The notes below the pieces were generated by a model. The model was not told where the DNA came from, did no database searches, and worked only from the letters and a program-made list of their open reading frames with translations. The translations under genes and the position numbers were made by a program. Source: an uncultured Clostridia bacterium (lineage in GTDB: Bacteria > Bacillota > Clostridia > Christensenellales > Borkfalkiaceae). From it: a stretch of DNA of 32,951 nt. The stretch spans positions 1 to 32,951 of the forward strand of contig CAMWMZ010000010.1 of the NCBI GenBank assembly GCA_947175485.1, read 5' to 3'. Shown here in pieces: positions 2,764 to 22,637 of this stretch (position 1 is the first letter of the stretch; each line of letters opens with the position of its first letter).

Positions 2764-4719
2764 ATGGATATTATTTTAAAAGATGGCAGTAAAATCGAGG
2801 TAAACGACGGCTCAAGCTGTGCTCAGGCGGCTTCTAAAATCAGTGAAGGACTGGCAAGGGCCGCAGTCGCGGCAAAAGTCAACGGCGAGCTTTGCGATCT
2901 TTCAAAAAAGCTTAAAAGCGGCGATTTGCTTGAAATAGTGACCCTCAAAGATAAAGAAGGGCTTGAAGTGTACCGTCATACGTGCGCACATATTCTTGCC
3001 CAGGCTGTTAAAAATATATTTCCTACATGCAAATTAGCAATCGGTCCGGTAATCGAAAACGGATTTTATTACGATATAGATTTTAACACCCCGATAGCTC
3101 AGGACGATTTTGAAAAAATTGAAACCGAGATGCAGAAAATAATAAATTCCAGAACGGTCATAGAAAGATTCGAGCTTTCACGTGATGAAGCGTTGAAGCT
3201 TATGACGAAGTACGGTGAAAAATATAAAGTAGAGCTTATTGAAGATTTACCTGACGACGCCGTTATTTCTTTTTATAAGCAAGGCTCTTTTACCGACCTT
3301 TGCCGCGGACCGCATCTTCCAAATACTGGCAAGATAAAAGCATTTAAACTTACCTCTCTTACCGGAGCTTACTGGCGAGGAAACGAAAAGAACAAAATGC
3401 TAACAAGAATTTACGGTACGGCATTCGAGAAAAAAGCACAGCTCGAAGAATATCTCGCAATGGTAGAAGAAGCAAAAAAACGCGACCATAATAAGCTCGG
3501 CCGTGACCTTGGCATTTTTATGACGAGCGATGTAGTAGGACAGGGCTTACCCATATTAATGCCTAAAGGCGCAAAGATTTTACAAATATTACAGCGTTTT
3601 GTTGAAGACGAAGAAGCAAAACGCGGTTTTATGATTACAAAAACGCCTAACATGGCAAAATCCGACCTTTACAAAATTTCCGGTCATTGGTCGCACTATC
3701 GGGATAAAATGTTCATATTAGGCGAAGTGGACGAACAGGGTGAAAGTGCAAAAGGTGAAGAAATAATGGCTCTTCGCCCCATGACATGCCCTTTTCAATA
3801 TCAGATTTTTAAAAACGGCTTAAAGTCTTACCGTGATTTGCCTTGCCGCTATTCGGAAACGGCTACGGAATTCAGAAACGAAGCTTCCGGTGAAATGCAC
3901 GGTCTTATCAGAGTACGGCAGTTTACCTTGTCTGACGGGCATATAATTTGTACTAAAGAACAAATCGAAGATGAGTTCAAGCGTTGCCTTGATTTATCAT
4001 ATTTTATTTTGGATGCGCTTGGAATGAGAAAAGACGTAACTTTCCGTTTTTCAAAAAGAGGCAAGTCAAAATCGGATAAATATATAGATAACGATGAAGC
4101 TTGGAACAAGACTGAAGCGATGATGAAGGTTATCCTTGACGATTTGGGTCTTGAGTATGTGGAAGCGGACGACGAGGCGGCTTTTTATGGTCCTAAACTA
4201 GATATTCAAGCTAAAAACGTTTACGGTAAGGAAGATACTCTCATTACAATTCAGATTGACTTTGCAGCCGGTGACAGCTTTGAAATGTATTACGTAGACG
4301 CAGACGGTACAAAACAAACGCCTTATGTAATTCACCGTAGTTCTATAGGATGTTATGAAAGGACGTTAGCGCTTTTAATTGAAAAGTATGCAGGAGCTTT
4401 CCCTCTTTGGATGTGCCCCACGCAAGTAAAAATTTTACCGATTACCGACAGAACGTTAGCGTATGCTGAAAGCGTAGCTGAAAAGTTGGTTCATGAAGGC
4501 ATTAGATGCGAAGTAGATAAGCGCAACGAAAAGATCGGATATAAAATCCGCGAAGCTAAAATGGACAAAGTTCCTTATGTGCTTGTAGTAGGGGATAAAG
4601 AAGCGGAAGAGGGAACTGTAAACGTAAACAAACGCGGTTCGGAAAGCAAAGATACAATAAAGCTTGAAAGTTTTGTGAAAAAAGTCATAAAAGAAAATAA
4701 CGAAAAGATAATTTTTTAA
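2764..4719 (+). CDS. thrS: Threonyl-tRNA synthetase
   Basis: This class II synthetase charges tRNA-Thr and edits Ser-tRNA-Thr. The 651-residue product has the full bacterial layout. A TGS domain covers about 1-62, followed by the editing domain with HxxxH at 72-76 and the FTDLCRGPH segment. The catalytic core has motif 2 RPMTCP and motif 3 around HRSSIGCYERTLALLIE. The C-terminal anticodon-binding domain begins near PLWMCPTQVKIL. The three zinc ligands expected from E. coli ThrRS are present as C342, H393 and H524. The ATG at 2764 follows TTTGGAGGA at good spacing and lies just past the T-box terminator, so expression should respond to uncharged tRNA-Thr. The gene is transcribed alone: infC has its own promoter immediately after the stop codon. 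Confidence 0.98.
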   Translation: MDIILKDGSKIEVNDGSSCAQAASKISEGLARAAVAAKVNGELCDLSKKLKSGDLLEIVTLKDKEGLEVYRHTCAHILAQAVKNIFPTCKLAIGPVIENGFYYDIDFNTPIAQDDFEKIETEMQKIINSRTVIERFELSRDEALKLMTKYGEKYKVELIEDLPDDAVISFYKQGSFTDLCRGPHLPNTGKIKAFKLTSLTGAYWRGNEKNKMLTRIYGTAFEKKAQLEEYLAMVEEAKKRDHNKLGRDLGIFMTSDVVGQGLPILMPKGAKILQILQRFVEDEEAKRGFMITKTPNMAKSDLYKISGHWSHYRDKMFILGEVDEQGESAKGEEIMALRPMTCPFQYQIFKNGLKSYRDLPCRYSETATEFRNEASGEMHGLIRVRQFTLSDGHIICTKEQIEDEFKRCLDLSYFILDALGMRKDVTFRFSKRGKSKSDKYIDNDEAWNKTEAMMKVILDDLGLEYVEADDEAAFYGPKLDIQAKNVYGKEDTLITIQIDFAAGDSFEMYYVDADGTKQTPYVIHRSSIGCYERTLALLIEKYAGAFPLWMCPTQVKILPITDRTLAYAESVAEKLVHEGIRCEVDKRNEKIGYKIREAKMDKVPYVLVVGDKEAEEGTVNVNKRGSESKDTIKLESFVKKVIKENNEKIIF

Positions 4720-4728
4720 TTAAAATAT

Positions 4729-4757
4729 TTGACAAAACCTAAAATTATTGCTATTAT
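4729..4757 (+). promoter_or_regulatory. infC operon promoter
   Basis: TTGACA (4729-4734), 17 bases and TATTAT (4752-4757) lie 10 bases after the thrS stop. The leader from about 4764 to 4898 carries an attenuator. Confidence 0.75.
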
Positions 4758-4763
4758 ATTTAA

Positions 4764-4898
4764 GTAAAGAAAAGGCAACCCCTTTCACCGTACGGATATT
4801 TTGTTCGGTACAATAATGATTTAAAGATTTTTAATCTTTCATTATGTCGGGTTGTATTTTGCAACCCGATTTTTTTCGGGTAAAAAAACGAGAGGTAT
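4764..4898 (+). promoter_or_regulatory. infC-rpmI-rplT leader with attenuator (L20-leader-like)
   Basis: A terminator hairpin is formed by TCGGGTTG (4847-4854) and CAACCCGA (4862-4869), followed by seven T. An upstream copy of GCAACCC (4775-4781) can pair with the same GGGTTG strand, so a long-range antiterminator and the terminator exclude each other. A second hairpin, AAAGATT (4823-4829) with AATCTTT (4833-4839), lies between. In Bacillus the same operon is controlled by L20 binding a leader that terminates early. By gene order and architecture this is the likely equivalent, but L20-binding features were not checked by alignment. Confidence 0.7.
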
Positions 4899-5423
4899 AT
4901 GATTATAAAAGACTTATATTCCGTCAATGAGGCTATTCGCGACAAGGAAGTAAGAGTTATAGGAGCCGACGGAGCTATGCTTGGCGTAATGTCAAGTTTT
5001 CAGGCTCAAAAGCTTGCTAATGAAGCGGAGTTGGACCTTGTAAAAATTTCTCCCAACGCTGTTCCGCCCGTATGCAAAATTATGGATTATTCCAAATTCA
5101 AGTACGAACAGTCTAAAAGAGAAAAAGAAAACCGTAAAAATCAGACAACTGTTGAATTGAAAGAAATCCGGCTTTCCATGACTATTGACATCGGTGATAT
5201 TGCCGTAAAAACAAAACAATGTCTTAAATTTCTGGAAGCGGGAAACAAAGTCAAGGTATCTATAAGAATGAAAGGACGTGAAAACGCACGCGCCTATCAA
5301 GGCGTGAAAGTTATGCAGGACTTTTTTGAGGGGCTTGACGGAAAAGCTGTTCAAGATAAAAAACCTTCTGCCGAAGGGAGAATGATTATAATGATGCTCT
5401 CCCCGGTAAAAGAAAAAAATTAA
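4899..5423 (+). CDS. infC: Translation initiation factor IF-3
   Basis: IF3 binds the 30S subunit, blocks premature 50S joining and proofreads the start codon. The 174-residue product has both domains. The N-terminal half carries NEAIRDKEVRVIGADG and the ISPNAVPPVCKIMDY signature. The C-terminal half begins near KEIRLSMTIDIGD and ends in the usual EGRMIIMMLSP. It heads the conserved infC-rpmI-rplT operon. The start is not certain: the ATG at 4899 lies only three bases after AGAGG, whereas the next codon ATT (4902) has ideal spacing and would give the MIKDL beginning typical of Firmicutes IF3. Many infC genes start with a rare ATT used for IF3 autoregulation. The ATG is kept here as the formal start. 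Confidence 0.97.
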   Translation: MIIKDLYSVNEAIRDKEVRVIGADGAMLGVMSSFQAQKLANEAELDLVKISPNAVPPVCKIMDYSKFKYEQSKREKENRKNQTTVELKEIRLSMTIDIGDIAVKTKQCLKFLEAGNKVKVSIRMKGRENARAYQGVKVMQDFFEGLDGKAVQDKKPSAEGRMIIMMLSPVKEKN

Positions 5424-5458
5424 ACATAAACTTTATTATATATTTGGAGGATACAAAC

Positions 5459-5659
5459 ATGCCCAAGCAGAAATCACACAGCGGCACTAAAAAGCGTTTT
5501 TGGCTTACCTCTACCGGCAAGGTTAAAAGACCCCACGGCGGAAAGAATCATAAAGCAGAAACCAAAAACAGAAAGAGAAAGAGAAATTTGCGTAAGGTTA
5601 CGCTTGTTTCAACTGCTCAGGAATCTAACGTAAAAGCTATGATTCCTTATAAGGATTAA
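5459..5659 (+). CDS. rpmI: 50S ribosomal protein L35
   Basis: L35 is a small, very basic protein of the large ribosomal subunit. The product is 66 residues, the normal size, and begins MPKQKSHSGTKKRFWLT. The KRPHGGKNHK and KRKRNLRK segments are typical of the family. The ATG at 5459 is preceded by GGAGG with eight bases between. An upstream in-frame TTG at 5444 overlaps that ribosome binding site and is rejected. It sits 35 bases after infC and 15 bases before rplT, in the standard three-gene order. Confidence 0.97.
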   Translation: MPKQKSHSGTKKRFWLTSTGKVKRPHGGKNHKAETKNRKRKRNLRKVTLVSTAQESNVKAMIPYKD

Positions 5660-5674
5660 TCGGAGGTAAGAACA

Positions 5675-6025
5675 ATGCGTATTAAAAGAAGTGTAAACGC
5701 GCTCAAAAAGCGCAGAAAAATATTCCGCCTTTCAAAAGGTTATTTCGGCAATAAATCAAAGTCTTACAGAATCGCCCGTGAAGCGGTTATGAAGTCGTTG
5801 AATTATGCGTACATCGGCAGAAGGCTTAGAAAGCGCGATATGCGCAGTCTTTGGATTGCCCGCATTAACGCGGCTGCAAGGCTTAACGGTCTTTCTTATT
5901 CCAAGTTTATGCACGGACTTAAAAATGCAGGTATTAATCTTAACAGAAAGATGCTCGCGGAAATTGCCGTAAACGATGCACCTGCTTTCACTGCGCTTGC
6001 AGAAAAAGCTAAAGCTGCACTATAA
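5675..6025 (+). CDS. rplT: 50S ribosomal protein L20
   Basis: L20 is a 116-residue 23S rRNA-binding protein needed for early 50S assembly. In Bacillus it also represses its own operon through the infC leader. The arginine/lysine-rich N-terminal half ([24 protein letters not shown] region) forms the extended rRNA-binding tail. The segment [20 protein letters not shown] is the conserved globular core. The ATG follows CGGAGG with good spacing. A terminator hairpin starts 9 bases after the stop codon. It probably separates strong ribosomal-protein expression from weaker expression of the methyltransferase downstream. Confidence 0.98.
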
Positions 6026-6033
6026 TCAAATTT

Positions 6034-6061
6034 TAAGCCTTTTTGAAAGGCTTAATTTTTT
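6034..6061 (+). terminator. Terminator after rplT, abutting the next start codon
   Basis: AAGCCTTT and AAAGGCTT form an 8-bp stem with a three-base loop at 6035-6053, followed by AATTTTTT. The ATG of the next gene lies at 6064, so the hairpin doubles as that gene's 5' region. Confidence 0.75.
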
Positions 6062-6063
6062 AT

Positions 6064-6792
6064 ATGGTAATTACTTCAAAATCAAATCCGATAGTTAAAG
6101 AGATATCAAAACTTAACGATAAAAAATACCGCAAAGAAAAAGGATTATATTTAGTTGAAGGCATAAAGCTTGTAAACGAGTGTATCGCTTCCGAGTGCTT
6201 TGTTGAAAATATTATTTGCACCGAAAATCTTGCGGAAAATTATCCAAAATCTATAATTGTATCCGATGATATTTTTAAAAATTTATCAAGCGAAATAACT
6301 CCGCAAGGGGTGCTTGCCGTTATCCGAAAACCGCAAAATATTTTAAAAAATCCGCAATGTAGTTGTATTTTGCTTGATTGCTTGCAGGATCCGGGTAATT
6401 TAGGAACAATTATCAGAACAGCTAACGCTGCGGGATACAAAGAAATATATCTTATTAATTGTACGGACCCGTATTCTCCGAAAGCCGTTCGTGCAAGTAT
6501 GGGCGGAATTTTCTACGTTAAAATTTATCAGGGTACAAAAGCCGAAATTTTAAATATGTTAAGCGGAATTGAACTTATTTGTGCGGATATGTCCGGTCAG
6601 GATATTTTTCAATTCACTGCTCCTGAAAAATTTTGCCTTTGTATCGGCAATGAAGGGAACGGGATAAGCCGTGATATAATTAATTTTTCGGATTATAAAA
6701 TCAAAATTCCTATGGATACATCTTGCGAAAGTCTAAACGCCGCGGTTTCGGCGGGAATTGCAATGTATCAATTAAAATATAATAAGAGGTAA
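6064..6792 (+). CDS. SpoU/TrmH-family RNA 2'-O-methyltransferase
   Basis: The product (242 residues) is a SPOUT-class RNA methyltransferase that would transfer a methyl group from SAM to a ribose 2'-hydroxyl in rRNA or tRNA. An N-terminal substrate-binding segment (about 1-90, including LYLVEGIKLVNE) precedes the SPOUT domain. All three motifs are visible: DPGNLGTIIRTANA, then CIGNEGNGIS, then ESLNAAVSAGIAMYQ. Length and layout fit the group next to rplT in many Firmicutes, but the modified nucleotide cannot be read from sequence. The ATG at 6064 is chosen over an in-frame TTG at 6043, which lies inside the terminator. No good ribosome binding site is visible, and GAAAGG at 6045-6050 is buried in the terminator stem. 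The stop overlaps the ribosome binding site of yebC. Confidence 0.9.
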   Translation: MVITSKSNPIVKEISKLNDKKYRKEKGLYLVEGIKLVNECIASECFVENIICTENLAENYPKSIIVSDDIFKNLSSEITPQGVLAVIRKPQNILKNPQCSCILLDCLQDPGNLGTIIRTANAAGYKEIYLINCTDPYSPKAVRASMGGIFYVKIYQGTKAEILNMLSGIELICADMSGQDIFQFTAPEKFCLCIGNEGNGISRDIINFSDYKIKIPMDTSCESLNAAVSAGIAMYQLKYNKR

Positions 6793-6795
6793 AAT

Positions 6796-7527
6796 ATGTC
6801 AGGACATTCCAAATGGCACAACATTCAGGCAAAGAAAGGCAAGACAGATGCTGCGCGTGCCGCCGTGTTTACAAAAATAGGAAGGGAACTTGCTGTTGCG
6901 GCTAAGGGTAACCCCAATCCCGATACTAACTCAAAGCTGGCAGACGTAATTGCTAAAGCTAAAGCGGCGAATATGCCGAACGAAAATATTAAACGTTCGA
7001 TTGCAAAAGCTGCAGGTGAGCTGGGAGATAAAGATTATAAAGAACTTACCTATGAGGGATACGGTGTTGCGGGATCTGCGGTAATAATTAAAACTCTTAC
7101 AGATAACGTAAACAGAACTGCAGGAGATATACGTTCTGCAATGGGTAAGTGCGGCGGACAAATGGGACAAACAGGCTGCGTTTCGTATATGTTTGATAAT
7201 AAAGGAATTTTTGTTATCGAACGAACGGTTAATCTAGATGAAGATACTATGATGGAGTATTGTCTTGAAGCCGAAGCGGACGATTATATAGTTGAAGAAG
7301 ACGTTTATGAAGTATATACTACACCTGAAAAATGGTCTTTGGCAAGAAAGTATTTTGAAGAAAAAGGCGTCACTTTCCTTGAAGCCGAAATTAAAATGAT
7401 ACCGCAAAACTATATATCATTGGATGCCGATAAGCTGGATACTTTTACACGTATGCTTGACAAATTAAACGAGCTTGATGACGTTCAAGACGTATATCAT
7501 AATGTTGAATTGCCTGATGAAGAATAA
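6796..7527 (+). CDS. yebC: YebC/PmpR-family translation or regulatory protein
   Basis: The 243-residue product starts with the family signature MSGHSKWHNIQAKKGKTDA. It continues with the conserved NMPNENIKRSIAKA and the YEGYGVAGSAVIIKTLTDNVNRT region. YebC proteins were long called transcriptional regulators. Work on bacterial YebC and mitochondrial TACO1 links the family to translation, relieving ribosome pausing, which fits the ribosomal neighbourhood here. The start is supported by AAGAGG at 6784-6789, inside the last codons of the methyltransferase. That implies translational coupling, with only 3 bases between stop and start. A strong terminator follows at 7541. Confidence 0.96.
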   Translation: MSGHSKWHNIQAKKGKTDAARAAVFTKIGRELAVAAKGNPNPDTNSKLADVIAKAKAANMPNENIKRSIAKAAGELGDKDYKELTYEGYGVAGSAVIIKTLTDNVNRTAGDIRSAMGKCGGQMGQTGCVSYMFDNKGIFVIERTVNLDEDTMMEYCLEAEADDYIVEEDVYEVYTTPEKWSLARKYFEEKGVTFLEAEIKMIPQNYISLDADKLDTFTRMLDKLNELDDVQDVYHNVELPDEE

Positions 7528-7540
7528 TTAGTAAAAATAA

Positions 7541-7569
7541 AAAGCGTGACGTTTTGTCACGCTTTTTTT
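7541..7569 (+). terminator. Terminator after yebC
   Basis: AAGCGTGAC and GTCACGCTT form a 9-bp perfect stem around a four-base loop, followed by a run of seven T. It closes the operon that begins at infC. Confidence 0.92.
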
Positions 7570-7603
7570 ATCTTTGGCGTATAATAAATTTGTGGTTGCA
7601 CAA

Positions 7604-7708
7604 TTTACTTATACAAGCGTTACGCTTTATTATATATTGTTCGTTTGTTAAAATACTTTTAAAGCGTTTCAATAAACGAGCGGGGGAGTATTCTTTTGAA
7701 TACTCCCC
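7604..7708 (+). promoter_or_regulatory. Candidate promoter and structured leader upstream of the solute-binding-like gene
   Basis: TTTACT (7604-7609) and TATTAT (7628-7633), 18 bases apart, may be a promoter. Its spacer contains AAGCGT-T-ACGCTT (7615-7627), an operator-like inverted repeat. Downstream are a short hairpin CGTTT/AAACG (7665-7678) and a perfect 11-bp stem, GGGGAGTATTC (7683-7693) with GAATACTCCCC (7698-7708), closed by TTTT. No T-run follows on either strand, so this is not an ordinary terminator. Confidence 0.45.
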
Positions 7709-7745
7709 AACGTATTTTCGGAGACATTGATAAATACAATATAAT

Positions 7746-8684
7746 ATGTTTAAAATCAAGTTTCTGAAGTTTAATAAAAAGAAATTGATGCACTTAATCA
7801 CTTTTCTTTTGTGCATTGCAATAATTATCGCCGCACCAACGCTTGCGGTAATTGATGGTAAGCAAGCAGCGGCTAAAAACGATTTAACAGTTTTGACAGT
7901 ATGGCAAATCGATAGCTTTGAGGGAGGAAAAGGTTCCCGGGCAAGTTATTTGCAAAGTATTGCCGATGAAAACTTCAAAAATAAAAACATTTATATAAAA
8001 GTAACGTCGCTCACTGCAGACGCGGCAAGATTAAATTTGTCTGAGGGAAATATTCCGGATATTATTTCTTATGGAGCCGGCATGCTTGGCATAGAAAATT
8101 ATCTGTGTGATAAGATACCTTATTATACATGGTGCCGCGGAGGATATTGTATATTAAGCATAAATGAAAATGCGGATTTTTCCGATTGTTCTAAAGACAA
8201 TACGATAATAAATGAAGGTACGGATAATCTATCGTCTGTAACGGCAATACTATGCGGATTAAACGGCGCAGACTTCGACAAACCTACAGGTGCATATGTT
8301 AAGCTGCTAAACGGTAAGTATAAATATCTTTTGGGTACACAGAGGGATATATTCAGATTAAAAAGCCGCGGAATGAACTTTAAAATTAAACCTGTTACCG
8401 AATTCAATGATTTATATCAAAACATATCTATAATTACGAATGATATAAAAAAATATACTCTGGCCAAAGATTTTATTAATCATTTAATGAGTTGTTACAA
8501 TAAAATTTCAAAGCTTGGTTTATTTTCTGATAATCAAAAAATATATGATGACGAACTTTCTCAAATGGAAAGCATAGAATTTACCTATAAACTTAAAACG
8601 CCTTTAAATGAAACTTTGAAAAAAGAAATTGATTTCGCAATAATAAATTGTGATGAAATAAAGCTGAAAAAACTGCTTAAATAA
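7746..8684 (+). CDS. Membrane-anchored solute-binding-like protein, function unknown
   Basis: I do not recognise a specific family. The 312-residue product has a basic N-terminus and one hydrophobic segment at about 15-35, which would export it and probably leave it anchored. The mature part begins with LTVLTVWQIDSFEGGKGSRASYLQ and has NIPDIISYGAG. These are reminiscent of the N-terminal lobe of family 1 ABC sugar-binding proteins, where TVW/TWW and PDI/PDV stretches recur. There is no lipobox cysteine, no permease or ATPase gene nearby, and the protein is shorter than the usual 400-450 residues. The C-terminal third is lysine-rich and charged. The ATG at 7746 lacks a clear ribosome binding site. 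It lies upstream of murB in the same direction, so a cell-envelope role is possible but unproven. Confidence 0.6.
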   Translation: MFKIKFLKFNKKKLMHLITFLLCIAIIIAAPTLAVIDGKQAAAKNDLTVLTVWQIDSFEGGKGSRASYLQSIADENFKNKNIYIKVTSLTADAARLNLSEGNIPDIISYGAGMLGIENYLCDKIPYYTWCRGGYCILSINENADFSDCSKDNTIINEGTDNLSSVTAILCGLNGADFDKPTGAYVKLLNGKYKYLLGTQRDIFRLKSRGMNFKIKPVTEFNDLYQNISIITNDIKKYTLAKDFINHLMSCYNKISKLGLFSDNQKIYDDELSQMESIEFTYKLKTPLNETLKKEIDFAIINCDEIKLKKLLK

Positions 8685-8727
8685 TTGTAAATAACAATAA
8701 AAAATGGTATGATATAAGAGGTATAGT

Positions 8728-9621
8728 TTGCACGCGCATAATTCAATATTAGACAAAATCAAGAAAGAAGAACAATTCCGTTTTTCAAAGCATACTACAT
8801 ATGGTTTGGGTGGTACGGCAAAAATTGCATATTTCCCTAAAAGCATAGAGGAAAGTATAGCGATATTCGATTATGTTAAAAATAATTATGAAAAATTTAC
8901 AATTTTAGGTAATGGCTCTAACATTCTTGTTTCCGATAAACCTTATGACGGAGCGGTTATAAGCACTAAGCTTTTGAATGAAATTACCTACAAATCCGGA
9001 ATTATAAGCTGTAATAGCGGCGTCACCGTAAATCAATTAATGAAATTTTGTATTTCTCACGGATTTAGCGGTCTTGAATATCTTGCCGGAATCCCGGGAA
9101 GTATTGGCGGGCTTGCTTATATGAACGGAGGTATTGGCGATAAACATATTGAATGTAACATATCGGACATTACTATTTATGACGGAAAAAATCGCAAATA
9201 TACAAATGAAGAGTGTGATTTTAGGTATAAACATAGTATTATGCGTGACATAATATGTTTTATTTTAAATATAGACCTTAAAGTTGCTGAAAGTAATTGT
9301 ATTACTGTTGAAAAAAATATTATTCAACAATTGGCTTTGAGAAACCACCAACCGATTGGTAAAAGTTGCGGATGCGTCTTTAAAAATCCAAAAGGTTGCA
9401 GCGCAGGTCAATTAATCGAGCATACCGGATTAAAGGGGCTTTCTTACGGAACAGCCGAGGTCAGCCGAGAGCATGCGAATTTTATAATTAACAAGGGATC
9501 TTCATCTGCAGACGTCTATAATCTTATACAGATAGTTAAGCGCAAGGTTTTTGAAAATTGCGGCATAATGCTTGATGAAGAAGTTATTTACATAGGAGAT
9601 TTTAATGGAACTTACAGCTGA
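8728..9621 (+). CDS. murB: UDP-N-acetylenolpyruvoylglucosamine reductase
   Basis: MurB reduces UDP-GlcNAc-enolpyruvate to UDP-MurNAc with NADPH and FAD, an early cytoplasmic step of peptidoglycan synthesis. The 297-residue product has the FAD-binding signatures NGSNILVSD (62-70) and AGIPGSIGGLAYMNGG (120-135). Its C-terminal substrate domain contains SCGCVFKNP and GQLIEHTGLKG. It is a short, type II MurB. The start is TTG at 8728, supported by AAGAGG six bases upstream; no ATG competes. The residue expected to be the proton-donating serine in the GS(V/F)FK motif is Cys216. The gene overlaps the next gene by 17 bases, so the two are probably translated together. Confidence 0.95.
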   Translation: MHAHNSILDKIKKEEQFRFSKHTTYGLGGTAKIAYFPKSIEESIAIFDYVKNNYEKFTILGNGSNILVSDKPYDGAVISTKLLNEITYKSGIISCNSGVTVNQLMKFCISHGFSGLEYLAGIPGSIGGLAYMNGGIGDKHIECNISDITIYDGKNRKYTNEECDFRYKHSIMRDIICFILNIDLKVAESNCITVEKNIIQQLALRNHQPIGKSCGCVFKNPKGCSAGQLIEHTGLKGLSYGTAEVSREHANFIINKGSSSADVYNLIQIVKRKVFENCGIMLDEEVIYIGDFNGTYS

Positions 9622-10381
9622 TTATCATACCCATACGCCGTATTCACATGGTAAAAATACAGTATTGGAAAACGCAGGCACGGCAAAAAAGCTTGGGTTA
9701 AAGGAAATCGGTATTACTGATCACGGGTTTAATCATTTGTTGTTCGGGCTGAAACGCAAAAACCTTGCGGATTTACGCTTTGAAATAGAAGAAGCGAAAA
9801 AACTTACCGGCGTGAATGTTTTAATGGGAATGGAAAGCAATCTTATTTCCGTTGACGGGGATACAGATATGAAGCAAAGCGATTTGCAATATTTCGATTT
9901 ATATTTATGCGGTATTCATGAAGTTCTGAGATATAAAACTTTTTCCGATATGCGAAATATAATGATAAAAAATTATTCAGCATATAAATTCGGAAAAAAG
10001 CCGTCGCCGAAAGTAATTGCGACAACAACGTCAGCGTATATAAATGCAATAAAAAACAATCCGATTGATATACTTACGCATATAAATTATAAGTGCTATT
10101 GCAACTTGAAAGATGTGGCTCAATGTTGTGCCGATTATGGTACTTATATAGAAATAAACACAAAAAAAAGACACGTATCTGCCGAAGAACTTAATTTAAT
10201 GGCGCAAACCGGAGTAAGATTTGTTATTGATTCCGACGCTCATTCCCAGGATAGGGTAGGTGACACAAAAATTGCGGACGAGCTTCTATCTTGCGCCTCG
10301 ATACCGCTTAATCAAATTGACAATATTGAAGGCAGATTGCCTAGTTTCAGACTTAAAGAATATAAAGCAAAGAATTTATAA
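9605..10381 (+). CDS. PHP-domain phosphoesterase
   Basis: The product (258 residues) is a stand-alone PHP metal-dependent phosphoesterase, related to histidinol phosphatase and YcdX-type enzymes. Metal-binding motifs are in order: HTHTPYSH at 8-15, DH at 39-40, a glutamate in GMESN near 77, GIHE, LTHIN and the C-terminal DSDAHS. The start ATG at 9605 follows AGGAG with six bases between, and the gene begins inside murB. No histidine biosynthesis genes are nearby, so histidinol phosphate is not the obvious substrate. In many Clostridia a PHP gene sits between murB and the rapZ-yvcK-whiA group. Substrate is unknown. Confidence 0.88.
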   Translation: MELTADYHTHTPYSHGKNTVLENAGTAKKLGLKEIGITDHGFNHLLFGLKRKNLADLRFEIEEAKKLTGVNVLMGMESNLISVDGDTDMKQSDLQYFDLYLCGIHEVLRYKTFSDMRNIMIKNYSAYKFGKKPSPKVIATTTSAYINAIKNNPIDILTHINYKCYCNLKDVAQCCADYGTYIEINTKKRHVSAEELNLMAQTGVRFVIDSDAHSQDRVGDTKIADELLSCASIPLNQIDNIEGRLPSFRLKEYKAKNL

Positions 10382-19498: not shown

Positions 19499-20383
19499 TT
19501 GCAAACATCCGATCTGGAAAAAACTGCTATAAAAACCTCAGTAGTAACAATTATATTTAATTTTGCTCTTAGCTTATTCAAACTTTTAGCCGGCATTTTC
19601 GGTGCGTCTATGGCCTTGATTTCTGACGCAATACATTCCGCATCTGATGTATTTTCAACAGTAATAGTATTGATTGGGGTAAAGGCTTCTTCTAAAAAAG
19701 CAGACAAAAAGCATCCGTTCGGACATGAAAGATTTGAATGTGTAGCGGCTATTATACTTGCTGTGGTGCTTTTTGCAACCGGAATCGGTATTGGATATGC
19801 CGGTATAGAAGCTATTATAACAGGCGCATATCTAAATTTTGAAATACCGAAAACAATTGCGCTTGTTGCTGCCGCTGTTTCAATTATAACAAAAGAGGCA
19901 ATGTTTTGGTACACAATAATTGCGTCAAAAAAAGTAAATTCTTCAGCGCTAAAGGCAGACGCATGGCATCATAGAACTGACGCGCTATCATCAGTCGGAA
20001 GTCTGGCAGGCATAATCGGCGCAATGTTGGGCGTTCCGGTTCTTGACTGTGTGGCGAGTATAATTATTTGTTTAATGATAATTATTGCAGCTGTCAGGAT
20101 TTTCATGGACGCAATTAAAAAAATGACAGATGAAGCTTGCGATGAAAAGACAGAAGAGGAGATACGAAATTTTATCTTATCTTGCAACGGAGTGGAGCGT
20201 ATTGATAATTTGATGACCAGACTATTCGGAAATCGTATTTATGTTATAGTTGAAATTGCTTGTGACGGTAGTCTGTCTTTATGCGCAGCGCACGAAATTG
20301 CCGAAAAAATCCATAATGGAATAGAAGAAAAATTTCCTTTGGTTAAACATATAACCGTTCACGTCAATCCATATATTTTATAA
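19499..20383 (+). CDS. CDF-family divalent cation exporter
   Basis: The 294-residue product is a cation diffusion facilitator that exports Zn, Fe, Mn or similar ions. About six membrane helices occupy 1-205. The metal-site motifs are DAIHSASD in helix 2 and DAWHHRTDA in helix 5, the usual DxxxD/HxxxD pairs. HPFGHERFE lies between. A cytoplasmic domain of about 85 residues follows and ends HVNPYIL. The start is TTG at 19499, supported by CGGAG six bases upstream; no suitable ATG exists nearby. A shared terminator follows. Which metal is moved cannot be told from these motifs. Confidence 0.94.
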   Translation: MQTSDLEKTAIKTSVVTIIFNFALSLFKLLAGIFGASMALISDAIHSASDVFSTVIVLIGVKASSKKADKKHPFGHERFECVAAIILAVVLFATGIGIGYAGIEAIITGAYLNFEIPKTIALVAAAVSIITKEAMFWYTIIASKKVNSSALKADAWHHRTDALSSVGSLAGIIGAMLGVPVLDCVASIIICLMIIIAAVRIFMDAIKKMTDEACDEKTEEEIRNFILSCNGVERIDNLMTRLFGNRIYVIVEIACDGSLSLCAAHEIAEKIHNGIEEKFPLVKHITVHVNPYIL

Positions 20384-20392
20384 ATATAAAAT

Positions 20393-20422
20393 AAAAACAC
20401 GGAATTTTTATCCGTGTTTTTT
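20393..20422. terminator. Bidirectional terminator between the cation exporter and lexA
   Basis: AAAAACACGGA (20393-20403) and TCCGTGTTTTT (20411-20421) form an 11-bp stem with T-runs on both strands. It serves the convergent CDF and lexA genes. Confidence 0.88.
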
Positions 20423-21025
20423 CTATAAATTTCTTATTAATCCGATAACTTTTCCAAGAATATGAACTTCATTGAAAATAAAGTCTTCCATTTCATCGTT
20501 TTCAGGGTGCAAAATAATTTTACCATCACGTTTAAAAAAACGTTTGACTGTTGCACTTTCATCAACAAGAGCCACAACTATATCTCCGTTATCTGCAGTC
20601 TGCTGTTTTCTAACTATAACTTTGTCACCTTCAAACATCCCGATTTTTATCATAGACGACCCTTGAACATTGAGCATAAACAAATCGTCGCCTGAAAAAA
20701 AGTTATCAGGAAGAGAATAATACCCTTCATAATTTTCAGCCGCAAAAATCGGTTGCCCGGCAGCGACTGTTCCTACAAGCGGAACAGATACCGATTTGCT
20801 TTTTAAAGATATTGCCCGCCGTTTCACGTCGGATTTTTCCAAAAGTCCGCGGTCTTTTAAACGGTTTATTATGTTAAATACAGTGGCGGTGGACTTTATG
20901 TTACAAGCTGAGCAAACTTCCCGCACACAAGGAGCATAGCCGTTTTCAGCCATATATTTTTGAATATAAGAAAAAACATTTTCTTCGTTTCTGATTTTTT
21001 CAGCTTGTCTCGGGGAAGTATTCAT
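20423..21025 (-). CDS. lexA: SOS repressor LexA
   Basis: LexA represses DNA-damage genes until RecA filaments trigger its self-cleavage. The 200-residue product has an N-terminal winged helix-turn-helix (about 1-72) with APCVREVCSACNIKSTATVFNII as the recognition region. The C-terminal S24 peptidase domain has the Ala89-Gly90 cleavage site in VGTVAAGQP, catalytic Ser124 in VQGSSMI and Lys161 in SATVKRFFK. All parts needed for autoproteolysis are present. The ATG follows GAGGTG. A candidate promoter (TTGATT at 21070-21065, TAAAAT at 21047-21042) is overlapped by a palindrome that may be its own operator. The gene converges on the CDF gene at a shared terminator. Confidence 0.96.
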   Translation of the reverse strand: MNTSPRQAEKIRNEENVFSYIQKYMAENGYAPCVREVCSACNIKSTATVFNIINRLKDRGLLEKSDVKRRAISLKSKSVSVPLVGTVAAGQPIFAAENYEGYYSLPDNFFSGDDLFMLNVQGSSMIKIGMFEGDKVIVRKQQTADNGDIVVALVDESATVKRFFKRDGKIILHPENDEMEDFIFNEVHILGKVIGLIRNL

Positions 21026-21041
21026 TTTTCACCTCAAAAAT

Positions 21042-21084
21042 ATTTTATCAGAAAACGTATTAAAAATCAAACAAAAGTTTGTTT
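21042..21084 (-). promoter_or_regulatory. lexA promoter with overlapping palindrome (candidate LexA operator)
   Basis: TTGATT-N17-TAAAAT on the minus strand (21070-21042). AAACAAA-AG-TTTGTTT at 21069-21084 is a perfect inverted repeat touching the -35. It differs from the Bacillus LexA box (CGAAC..GTTCG), so the assignment rests on position only. A plus-strand TTGAAT-N17-TATTAT (21093-21121) for the neighbouring gene begins 9 bases away. Confidence 0.5.
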
Positions 21085-21137
21085 AAATTTACTTGAATTT
21101 TAAACAATTTAAATATATTATATTGTCGAGGTGTAAA

Positions 21138-21314
21138 ATGAAAATCGAAAAAAGAAAATGCGTGCTGTATGAAAGGGAGTGTATCGATTGCGGCGAATGC
21201 GACTTATGTGACCTGGACCCGCTTAAAATTTGCGATAACTGCGGCAAATGTTTAGATATACGTGATGATGCCATAATAAAAATCGATAAAATAATAACCG
21301 ACAAAAATGATTAA
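21138..21314 (+). CDS. 58-residue cysteine-rich protein
   Basis: I do not recognise a named family. This soluble protein has seven of its eight cysteines in two runs: C15, C18, C21, C24 and C32, C35, C38, all with two-residue spacing, plus C8. The pattern resembles ferredoxin-like iron-sulfur or multi-zinc binding, but lacks the classical CX2CX2CX3CP arrangement. Charged ends frame the metal-binding core. The ATG at 21138 follows GAGGTG at 21128-21133 and a TTGAAT-N17-TATTAT promoter. A longer frame starting at 21093 is not supported. It diverges from lexA, and its stop codon overlaps that of the recombinase. A redox or damage-linked role is conceivable only from position. Confidence 0.75.
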   Translation: MKIEKRKCVLYERECIDCGECDLCDLDPLKICDNCGKCLDIRDDAIIKIDKIITDKND

Positions 21315-22357
21315 TCTTCACGTTTTAATTTTACTTTACCAACCACGCCGCGCCGATTATCGTCGCTAATTGCAGCATAATGCTTACGTGTTGTATTTAC
21401 GTCTTTATGCCCTAAAACATCAGCAACAATATAAATATCACCAGTTGCTCTGTAAAGTTGAGTACCATAAGTAGAACGCAATTTGTGCGGTGAAATCTTT
21501 TTGAGAGGGGACACTATTTTTGCATATTTTTGAACAAGATTTTCAACTGCTCGCACAGTTATGCGGTTTTTATTGTTTGAGATAAAGAGGGCAGAGGACT
21601 CTTTTAATTTCTCATAATAATGCTCTTTGTAGTCAAGGTAGCGCTGTAGCGCTGCGGCAACGTCGTCATCAAAATACAAAATAGTTTTATTTCCGCCCTT
21701 TCGTGTAACAATAAAGGAGTTATCTTTAAAATTGATATCTTCGTTATTCAGTCCTACAAGTTCGCTTATACGAATTCCGGTGCCAAGAAATAGCATTAAA
21801 ATTGCTGAATCGCGGATTTTTGTTTTTTCATGATAGGCCCTTTGATGGGGGGTAAGACCATCGCCGCTTTCAACTGCATCCAAAATACCGTAGACTTCAT
21901 TTGTATCAAGTCGGATTATAGGCTTTTCGTGCAGTTTAGGCGTTGCAACTTTTGAAGAATTATCAACACTTATCATATTTTTATTAAAAAAGAATTTAAA
22001 CATCGCACGAACAGAAGACAGCTTTCTGGCTTTAGCGCGTTCATTACAAGTATGTTCTTTTCCGTTATAATTATAGTGAGATAAATATCCTATAAAATAT
22101 TCTATATCGTTACTGGTTACGTTTTCTAAGTCCTCAAGCGTGATTTGCTGAATTGTTTTACGTTTACGAAATTTTTTTTCTTGAAGAAAGTAGAAGAATA
22201 TTTTTAAGTCATGGGCATAGTTAAGACGTGTTAATGAAGACGTTTGGCTATCAATGGAAAGAAAATAATCGTAGCAAAAAGACGGAAGCTCTTTATCTAA
22301 AATTCTTTCAATTGTTTCCAGATTTTTATTGTTTCTTTGTATATAATAGTTTGACAT
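21311..22357 (-). CDS. Tyrosine recombinase (phage integrase/Xer family)
   Basis: The 348-residue product is a site-specific tyrosine recombinase. An N-terminal SAM-like core-binding domain covers about 25-135. The catalytic domain has R196 in GTGIRISELVGL, K220/K224 in RKGGNK, HKLR at 291-294, H317 in LGHKDV and the nucleophile Y327 in KHYAAI, so the active site is complete. It is a little longer than typical XerC/XerD (about 300), with extra residues at the N-terminus and a charged tail. No excisionase, phage or transposon genes are near, so a stand-alone or Xer-like function is likely. The ATG lacks a strong ribosome binding site. Its leader contains a 34-bp inverted repeat resembling loxP. 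The stop overlaps the plus-strand cysteine-rich gene. Confidence 0.93.
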   Translation of the reverse strand: MSNYYIQRNNKNLETIERILDKELPSFCYDYFLSIDSQTSSLTRLNYAHDLKIFFYFLQEKKFRKRKTIQQITLEDLENVTSNDIEYFIGYLSHYNYNGKEHTCNERAKARKLSSVRAMFKFFFNKNMISVDNSSKVATPKLHEKPIIRLDTNEVYGILDAVESGDGLTPHQRAYHEKTKIRDSAILMLFLGTGIRISELVGLNNEDINFKDNSFIVTRKGGNKTILYFDDDVAAALQRYLDYKEHYYEKLKESSALFISNNKNRITVRAVENLVQKYAKIVSPLKKISPHKLRSTYGTQLYRATGDIYIVADVLGHKDVNTTRKHYAAISDDNRRGVVGKVKLKRED

Positions 22358-22400
22358 AATAAAAGGGTAGTCCTATTTTGATGTGAAAAATAATATATAT

Positions 22401-22434
22401 AACACTTCGTAAAACACAGCTTTTACGAAGTGTT
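22401..22434. repeat. 34-bp loxP-like inverted repeat upstream of the recombinase
   Basis: AACACTTCGTAAAA (22401-22414) and TTTTACGAAGTGTT (22421-22434) are perfect 14-base inverted arms around CACAGC. Read as 13-8-13 the total length and the ACTTCGTA core equal those of loxP, with 10 of 13 arm positions identical to the loxP arm. It begins 44 bases from the recombinase start codon. It could be a recombination site, an operator or an RNA hairpin; no T-run typical of a terminator follows directly. Confidence 0.6.
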
Positions 22435-22448
22435 GCCGTGATAAATAT

Positions 22449-22477
22449 AGAATAACAAAAGAATACCTGATTGTCAA
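22449..22477 (-). promoter_or_regulatory. Recombinase promoter
   Basis: TTGACA (22477-22472), 17 bases and TATTCT (22454-22449) on the minus strand. The transcript would begin near 22442, so the inverted repeat at 22401-22434 lies at its 5' end. Confidence 0.65.
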
Positions 22478-22589: not shown

Positions 22590-22637
22590 TAAAAAACAAA
22601 AATATAGCGCACTGCCAGAAGTTTAGTGCGCTATATT
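22590..22637 (-). terminator. Terminator of the glycogen operon
   Basis: AATATAGCGCACT (22601-22613) and AGTGCGCTATATT (22625-22637) form a perfect 13-bp stem. On the minus strand it is followed by TTTTTGTTTTTT. It lies just past glgP. Confidence 0.88.

Follow-up and report, generated by a model that had tools for sequence, protein, structure and literature searches.

Positions 22401-22434 of the window (the whole stretch of DNA analyzed, 32,951 nucleotides from an uncultured Clostridia bacterium) very likely form, on the minus strand, the dif site of an Xer system that uses one recombinase, with the gene at 21311-22357 encoding that enzyme. Comparison with relatives suggests that this palindrome is very probably the single dif of the chromosome, at which the adjacent recombinase would separate fused daughter chromosomes. 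The basis is comparative throughout, and the genomes are mostly metagenome assemblies; binding, cleavage, dimer resolution, dependence on FtsK and autoregulation are what we infer from them. In the proposed mechanism, two identical recombinase subunits would bind the two equal arms; in a dimeric chromosome two dif sites would pair, brought together by FtsK, which would also activate the enzyme, and strand exchange across the 6-bp asymmetric center would yield two monomers. If this is true, it adds a further one-recombinase lineage of dimer resolution, in a large uncultured group of gut bacteria, and the symmetric site would offer a clean case of how one recombinase orders two strand exchanges when only the center is asymmetric.

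A Symmetric Site Adjoins an Xer-Type Recombinase Gene

The site, delimited by a repeat search, motif counts in the genome and the loci of relatives, consists of two 14-nt arms of 100% complementarity, at 22401-22414 and 22421-22434, around a 6-nt spacer (14+6+14), which confirms the perfect inverted repeat given in the preliminary description. Chance alone would give about 0.002 repeats of this kind (arms of 14, loop of 3-8) over the length of the window. Read on the gene strand, the center is GCTGTG and is indeed asymmetric. Whereas the 8-mer TACGAAGT alone is frequent in the genome (29 forward and 16 reverse occurrences; 19 and 16 for the reversed control), the whole palindrome pattern occurs there once.

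The palindrome lies upstream of the recombinase gene as first described, at a distance of 43 bases from the ATG rather than 44. On its other side a promoter scan finds a promoter-like TTGACA-17-TATTCT on the minus strand (22449-22477), 14 bp ahead of the site and with TG preceding the second hexamer, in agreement with the earlier placement just downstream of the recombinase promoter. Domain and family models, PDB matches and a tree identify the product of 21311-22357 (minus strand) as a single, long (348 aa) Xer-type tyrosine recombinase: Pfam recognizes a phage-integrase catalytic domain and an N-terminal SAM-like domain, and an alignment with XerD, judged by eye, assigns the catalytic residues R196, K220, H291, R294, H317 and Y327. 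Since the gene is flanked by lexA and glycogen genes it is not in an evident prophage. The same genome has one FtsK/SpoIIIE match, an FtsK with a gamma domain (71 bits, cut-off 31). Behind glgP, repeat search and folding reveal a separate hairpin followed by a T-rich tail (22601-22637, minus strand), which the terminator scan did not list and which is probably the glgP terminator; the dif palindrome is therefore not needed in that role, for which we rejected it.

The Site Is Conserved Beside the Gene and Present in Single Copy

A search of 61 genomes with the relaxed core TKCGYAAAA-N6-TTTTRCGMA found the motif in 47, including the genome studied here, and once only in 46 of these 47 (the assemblies being incomplete); the reversed control pattern was found in 0 of 61. 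Recombinase and motif occur together in 46 genomes, the recombinase alone in 6, the motif alone in 1 and neither in 8 (Fisher p 8e-6). In an order-wide sample of 297 genomes the motif was found in 219, once in 213 of them, and the exact pattern was missing in 78; the reversed control was found in 2. Another observation concerns one genome (G021), where a second dif-like motif at position 1022 of contig C58 (L133) may belong to an element or to contamination.

With two loci excluded beforehand where a contig end cuts the gene (L065 and L068), 108 loci were compared; 95 of them, with 87 unique genes, have the site beside the orthologous gene, at distances of 33 to 8029 bases upstream and, in other families of the order, sometimes kilobases away; beside the gene in the other 13 loci no site was found. 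The preliminary description had named loss of the repeat beside orthologues as the outcome that would speak against it, and what these loci display is its retention. The arms have changed together. Their outermost five letters agree between the arms in 357 of 435 cells (shuffle mean 265, maximum 290), in a test that used arm positions 1-5 only, positions 6-14 being filtered by the search pattern, and whose rows are related, with a few near copies (L018 and L047), so that the shuffles overstate significance. A perfect 14-base palindrome is found in 41 of 87 sites and a self-complementary 6-bp center in 0 of 87; the center is closer to GCTGTG than to its complement in 68 sites, against 18 with the opposite preference, and within the genus its asymmetric form is conserved. 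Such a build, with equal arms and a center whose polarity is fixed, would be required by a single recombinase that works as identical subunits.

Covarying arms would also suit an RNA hairpin in the leader, the plain alternative of the preliminary description, in which the palindrome would be only an attenuator or terminator of the recombinase transcript. The stem would be stable (-17.4 kcal/mol, z -4.9) and probably lies within the leader in the window, and the terminator scan lists it, though ATATATATTA rather than a T run comes next. However, an RNA stem has no need of the asymmetric loop that is kept in the genus, G-U accounts for none of 79 among the 98 broken pairs, and in many relatives the site is far from the gene, by as much as 8 kb (8029 bp); moreover, it is single copy, sits at the skew switch and is a point at which elements integrate (see below). 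We therefore rejected the hairpin as the main explanation, on the distance to the gene and the broken pairs that are not G-U, and regard it as very improbable.

The Site Marks the Replication Terminus

Cumulative skew, a changepoint fit and the directions of open reading frames place a GC-skew switch and a region of gene convergence at 20326-22477. Genes in the window point mostly to the right as far as 20383 and to the left from 20423, and GC skew is positive from 2.3 to 18 kb and negative from 22.5 kb on. The least-squares changepoint, at 22477, is 60 bp from the center of the palindrome, and the raw maximum of cumulative skew, at 20326, is 2.1 kb off the site. Among seven long contigs of relatives (173-398 kb), six have their changepoint at most 2.6 kb from the site (offsets of -40, +70, -1425, +2590, -1895 and -759 bases); the seventh, with weak skew, has no switch at the site and a changepoint 41 kb away. 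Shorter stretches, covering 52 places in 51 loci, have a higher skew to the left than to the right of the site in 50 places, a change of sign at the site in 38 and converging open frames in 29. Given this skew switch and the convergence of genes around it, the site marks the replication terminus. The earlier suggestion that the palindrome is the crossover site of its own recombinase is very probably right, in the form of a chromosomal dif.

The Recombinase Probably Belongs to a Separate One-Recombinase Group

The top NCBIfam model for the recombinase is XerS, at 198 bits, below its cut-off of 267; the XerC, XerD and archaeal XerA models rank next, all below their own cut-offs. Its best match among 11 PDB matches is XerD (75 bits), with the "XerC-like" recombinase 4a8e at 69, XerA at 63 and XerH at 31, and Cre is absent from these 11 at E 0.001 in this sequence search. 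This bears on the likeness to loxP noted in the preliminary description, which envisaged DNA between promoter and gene being inverted, inserted or excised; the likeness is no sign of kinship with Cre. Cre belongs to the same class of tyrosine recombinases and loxP has two-fold symmetric arms; the length of 34 bp agrees, and the count of 10 of 13 arm letters shared with loxP holds. The outer arm letters, however, vary among relatives, the site is chromosomal and terminus-linked, one site per genome is the rule (46 of 47), and lexA and glycogen genes are the neighbors; nothing that we found suggests inversion or excision between promoter and gene as the function. On the protein matches, the arm variation and the single copy we rejected kinship with Cre/loxP, and such a switch is extremely unlikely. 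The likeness to loxP has its counterpart in Bacillus subtilis dif (PMC3025954), whose left arm shares 9 of 11 letters with ACTTCGTAAAA.

Very long branches in a first tree, of 49 rows, led us to rebuild it carefully from 29 of the 49, the rows dropped including both other recombinases of the same genome as well as L209, L213, L215, L225 and L226. Proteins are labeled "XerS" in it if they score above the NF003462 cut-off and "XerCD" if they are of about 300 aa and below that cut-off. The 29 proteins fall into three groups: XerS (support 99/96), the XerC/D-like proteins of about 300 aa (100/99) and a clade (98/98) in which the present gene and its orthologues are joined by four genes that come from two other families of the class. 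A constraint uniting the orthologues with XerS gave a borderline p-AU of 0.048. Membership in XerS was rejected on the score of 198 bits against 267 and on the position outside the XerS clade. Among the five Clostridia relatives outside the order, L207, which represents another family of the class, carries a similarly built palindrome, tatctatcggataaa TATCTG tttttccgatagata, 56 bases upstream of its Xer gene; it was the only one of the five with a similar palindrome, and none was seen for the remaining three of the four other-family genes in the clade. As a control, a difSL-like site was found at -67 of an XerS gene scoring above the cut-off (L198), the only one of eight XerS loci with such a site within 500 bp upstream (it was not found in L199-L205). 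With so few linked sites in XerS loci and outside the order, either linkage is not universal or the search is insensitive.

One-recombinase systems have been described as XerS/difSL (PMC5357621), XerH/difH (PMC2731167) and XerL (PMC9765430), and in the accounts of the first two dif is reported near the recombinase gene. The present system would resemble XerS/difSL of streptococci and lactococci in having one long recombinase, a dif by the gene and at the terminus, and an FtsK gamma domain in the genome; the difSL site, as described, is of about 31 bp with an 11-bp center and imperfect arms (PMC5357621), unlike the 6-bp center and equal arms here. XerH/difH of Helicobacter and Campylobacter shares the one recombinase, the 6-bp center and a dif that is often by the gene, going by its published account (PMC2731167), and differs in arm letters and in the protein, ours scoring 31 bits to XerH against 75 to XerD. 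By its description, XerL/dif of Legionellales combines one recombinase with long uninterrupted inverted repeats, and a mobile element integrates at its dif, as in relatives here; in that account the Legionella pneumophila gene is more than 400 kb from dif, unlike the arrangement in the window (PMC9765430). The XerCD (CodV/RipX)/dif system of B. subtilis shares those 9 of 11 left-arm letters, and an 11-6-11 core fits, but it has two recombinases and two unlike arms where we find one conserved recombinase and equal arms. The present system thus appears to work like XerS/difSL although its recombinase is not XerS, and the comparison sets it apart, as a group of its own among uncultured gut Clostridia, from the streptococcal and Helicobacter systems. 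A search confined to the open-access literature returned no description of this lineage.

By "one recombinase" we mean one conserved recombinase, because 10 of 61 genomes have a XerD-like gene that scores 200-280 bits, short of the model cut-off, and the genome studied here has fragments of one at contig ends; XerD above the cut-off was found in 0 of 61. The frequent position of the XerD-like gene close to contig ends (G000 contigs C67 and C87, G024, G012, G034, G054 and others) suggests a mobile element present in repeated copies.

The Recombinase Probably Regulates Its Own Gene

Recombinase bound at the site, which separates the promoter from the gene, would probably limit its own expression, and relatives support the self-regulation that the preliminary description had put forward as a possibility. 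Where the full site is at most 75 bp from the gene, as it is in the window, promoter-like sequence lies 6-15 bp upstream of it in 11 of 12 loci; where it is more than 250 bp away, this is so in 3 of 39. We then considered the 46 loci with no full site found or with one more than 250 bases from the gene. In 27 of them a solitary half-site stands at most 110 bases upstream of the gene, against a background expectation of 1.3, with 0 of 46 for a reversed pattern, 2 of 46 for an altered pattern and 5 of 471 for the other mechanical open frames of at least 200 aa in the same loci. The 91 loci examined for forward half-sites near the gene hold 43, of which 35 precede promoter-like sequence and 8 are without it; the gap to the -35 box is nil in 14, 1-4 bases in 11, 7 in 7 and 13-16 in 3. 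Neither a full nor a half-site was found near the gene in 33 of 96 loci.

A half-site in the promoter region where dif is distant or was not found indicates that the recombinase probably regulates its own gene, and both layouts, dif behind the promoter or a half-site at it, would put the recombinase on its own promoter. Autorepression would be the plain reading of these layouts, with activation as the alternative. A broader proposal, which we consider fairly likely, is that a separate one-recombinase Xer lineage with a near-symmetric dif spans the order, and that its recombinase controls its own gene through a dif just behind the promoter or, when dif is farther, through a half-site at the -35 box; the operator would have been kept while dif drifted by up to kilobases, and a half-site binding a monomer would serve as a sensor of the recombinase level. 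With these half-sites at the promoter, autoregulation by Xer becomes open to direct test.

The same promoter layouts and half-sites would fit an operator and nothing more, that is, a regulatory site bound by a dimer or monomer, with recombination taking place elsewhere. Such an operator, however, would not be expected to lie at the skew switch, to keep its full form when kilobases separate it from the gene or to serve as the point at which mobile elements integrate, and we judge this reading, too, to have very little probability.

Mobile Elements Seem to Integrate at the Site in Relatives

Three loci of relatives carry an insert between copies of the site, which we read as footprints of integration there. 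One (L094, 1943-9600) has an insert with a Rep_1 replication protein bracketed by two copies 7.6 kb apart, the second with a degenerate left arm and the center GCTGTG of the full first copy. Another Rep_1 insert (L096, 2908-9880) is flanked such that the left arm of the first copy is the exact reverse complement of the right arm of the second. The third insert (L082, about 4465-9800), located upstream of the recombinase gene, is a microvirus with a Phage_F capsid (phrog_514) and a replication protein (phrog_942), bounded by a full site on one side and by one or two degenerate copies on the other. An empty site could be demonstrated for L094 and L082, though not for L096, by insert-free relatives in which the flanks are less than 1 kb apart (L056 and L086, respectively). 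No integrase was found among 15 insert proteins scanned from these loci, the larger open frames, nor did any of the three inserts match another locus among the 78 compared.

In a fourth relative (G008, contigs C3 and C21; L156 and L049), a copy of the site stands behind glgP at the end of one contig, and on the other a copy with a 9-base center adjoins the recombinase, with a plasmid-type Rep on that contig, which makes this a further candidate element at dif. In another locus (L122), the left arm of the site occurs twice together with its left flank, at -9481 and -4142 from the recombinase start and some 5.3 kb apart, perhaps through another insertion or a duplication.

Small rolling-circle elements, one of them a microvirus, seem to exploit the host machinery of dimer resolution. 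Since microviruses using XerC/XerD dif sites are already on record, in the accounts cited (PMC3091885, PMC7062461), the habit itself is a known one and the host system is what differs here. In IMG/VR viral contigs the motif was found in 98 stretches, 80 of them among the matches listed, which by a rough reckoning is not clearly above chance; 10 proteins from 10 motif-bearing contigs included one microvirus capsid, one integrase and five terminases. One IMG/VR contig of 5960 bases (L297) is microvirus-like, with a phrog_514 capsid and a dif-like motif at 528, and is perhaps the free form of a dif-integrated microvirus element.
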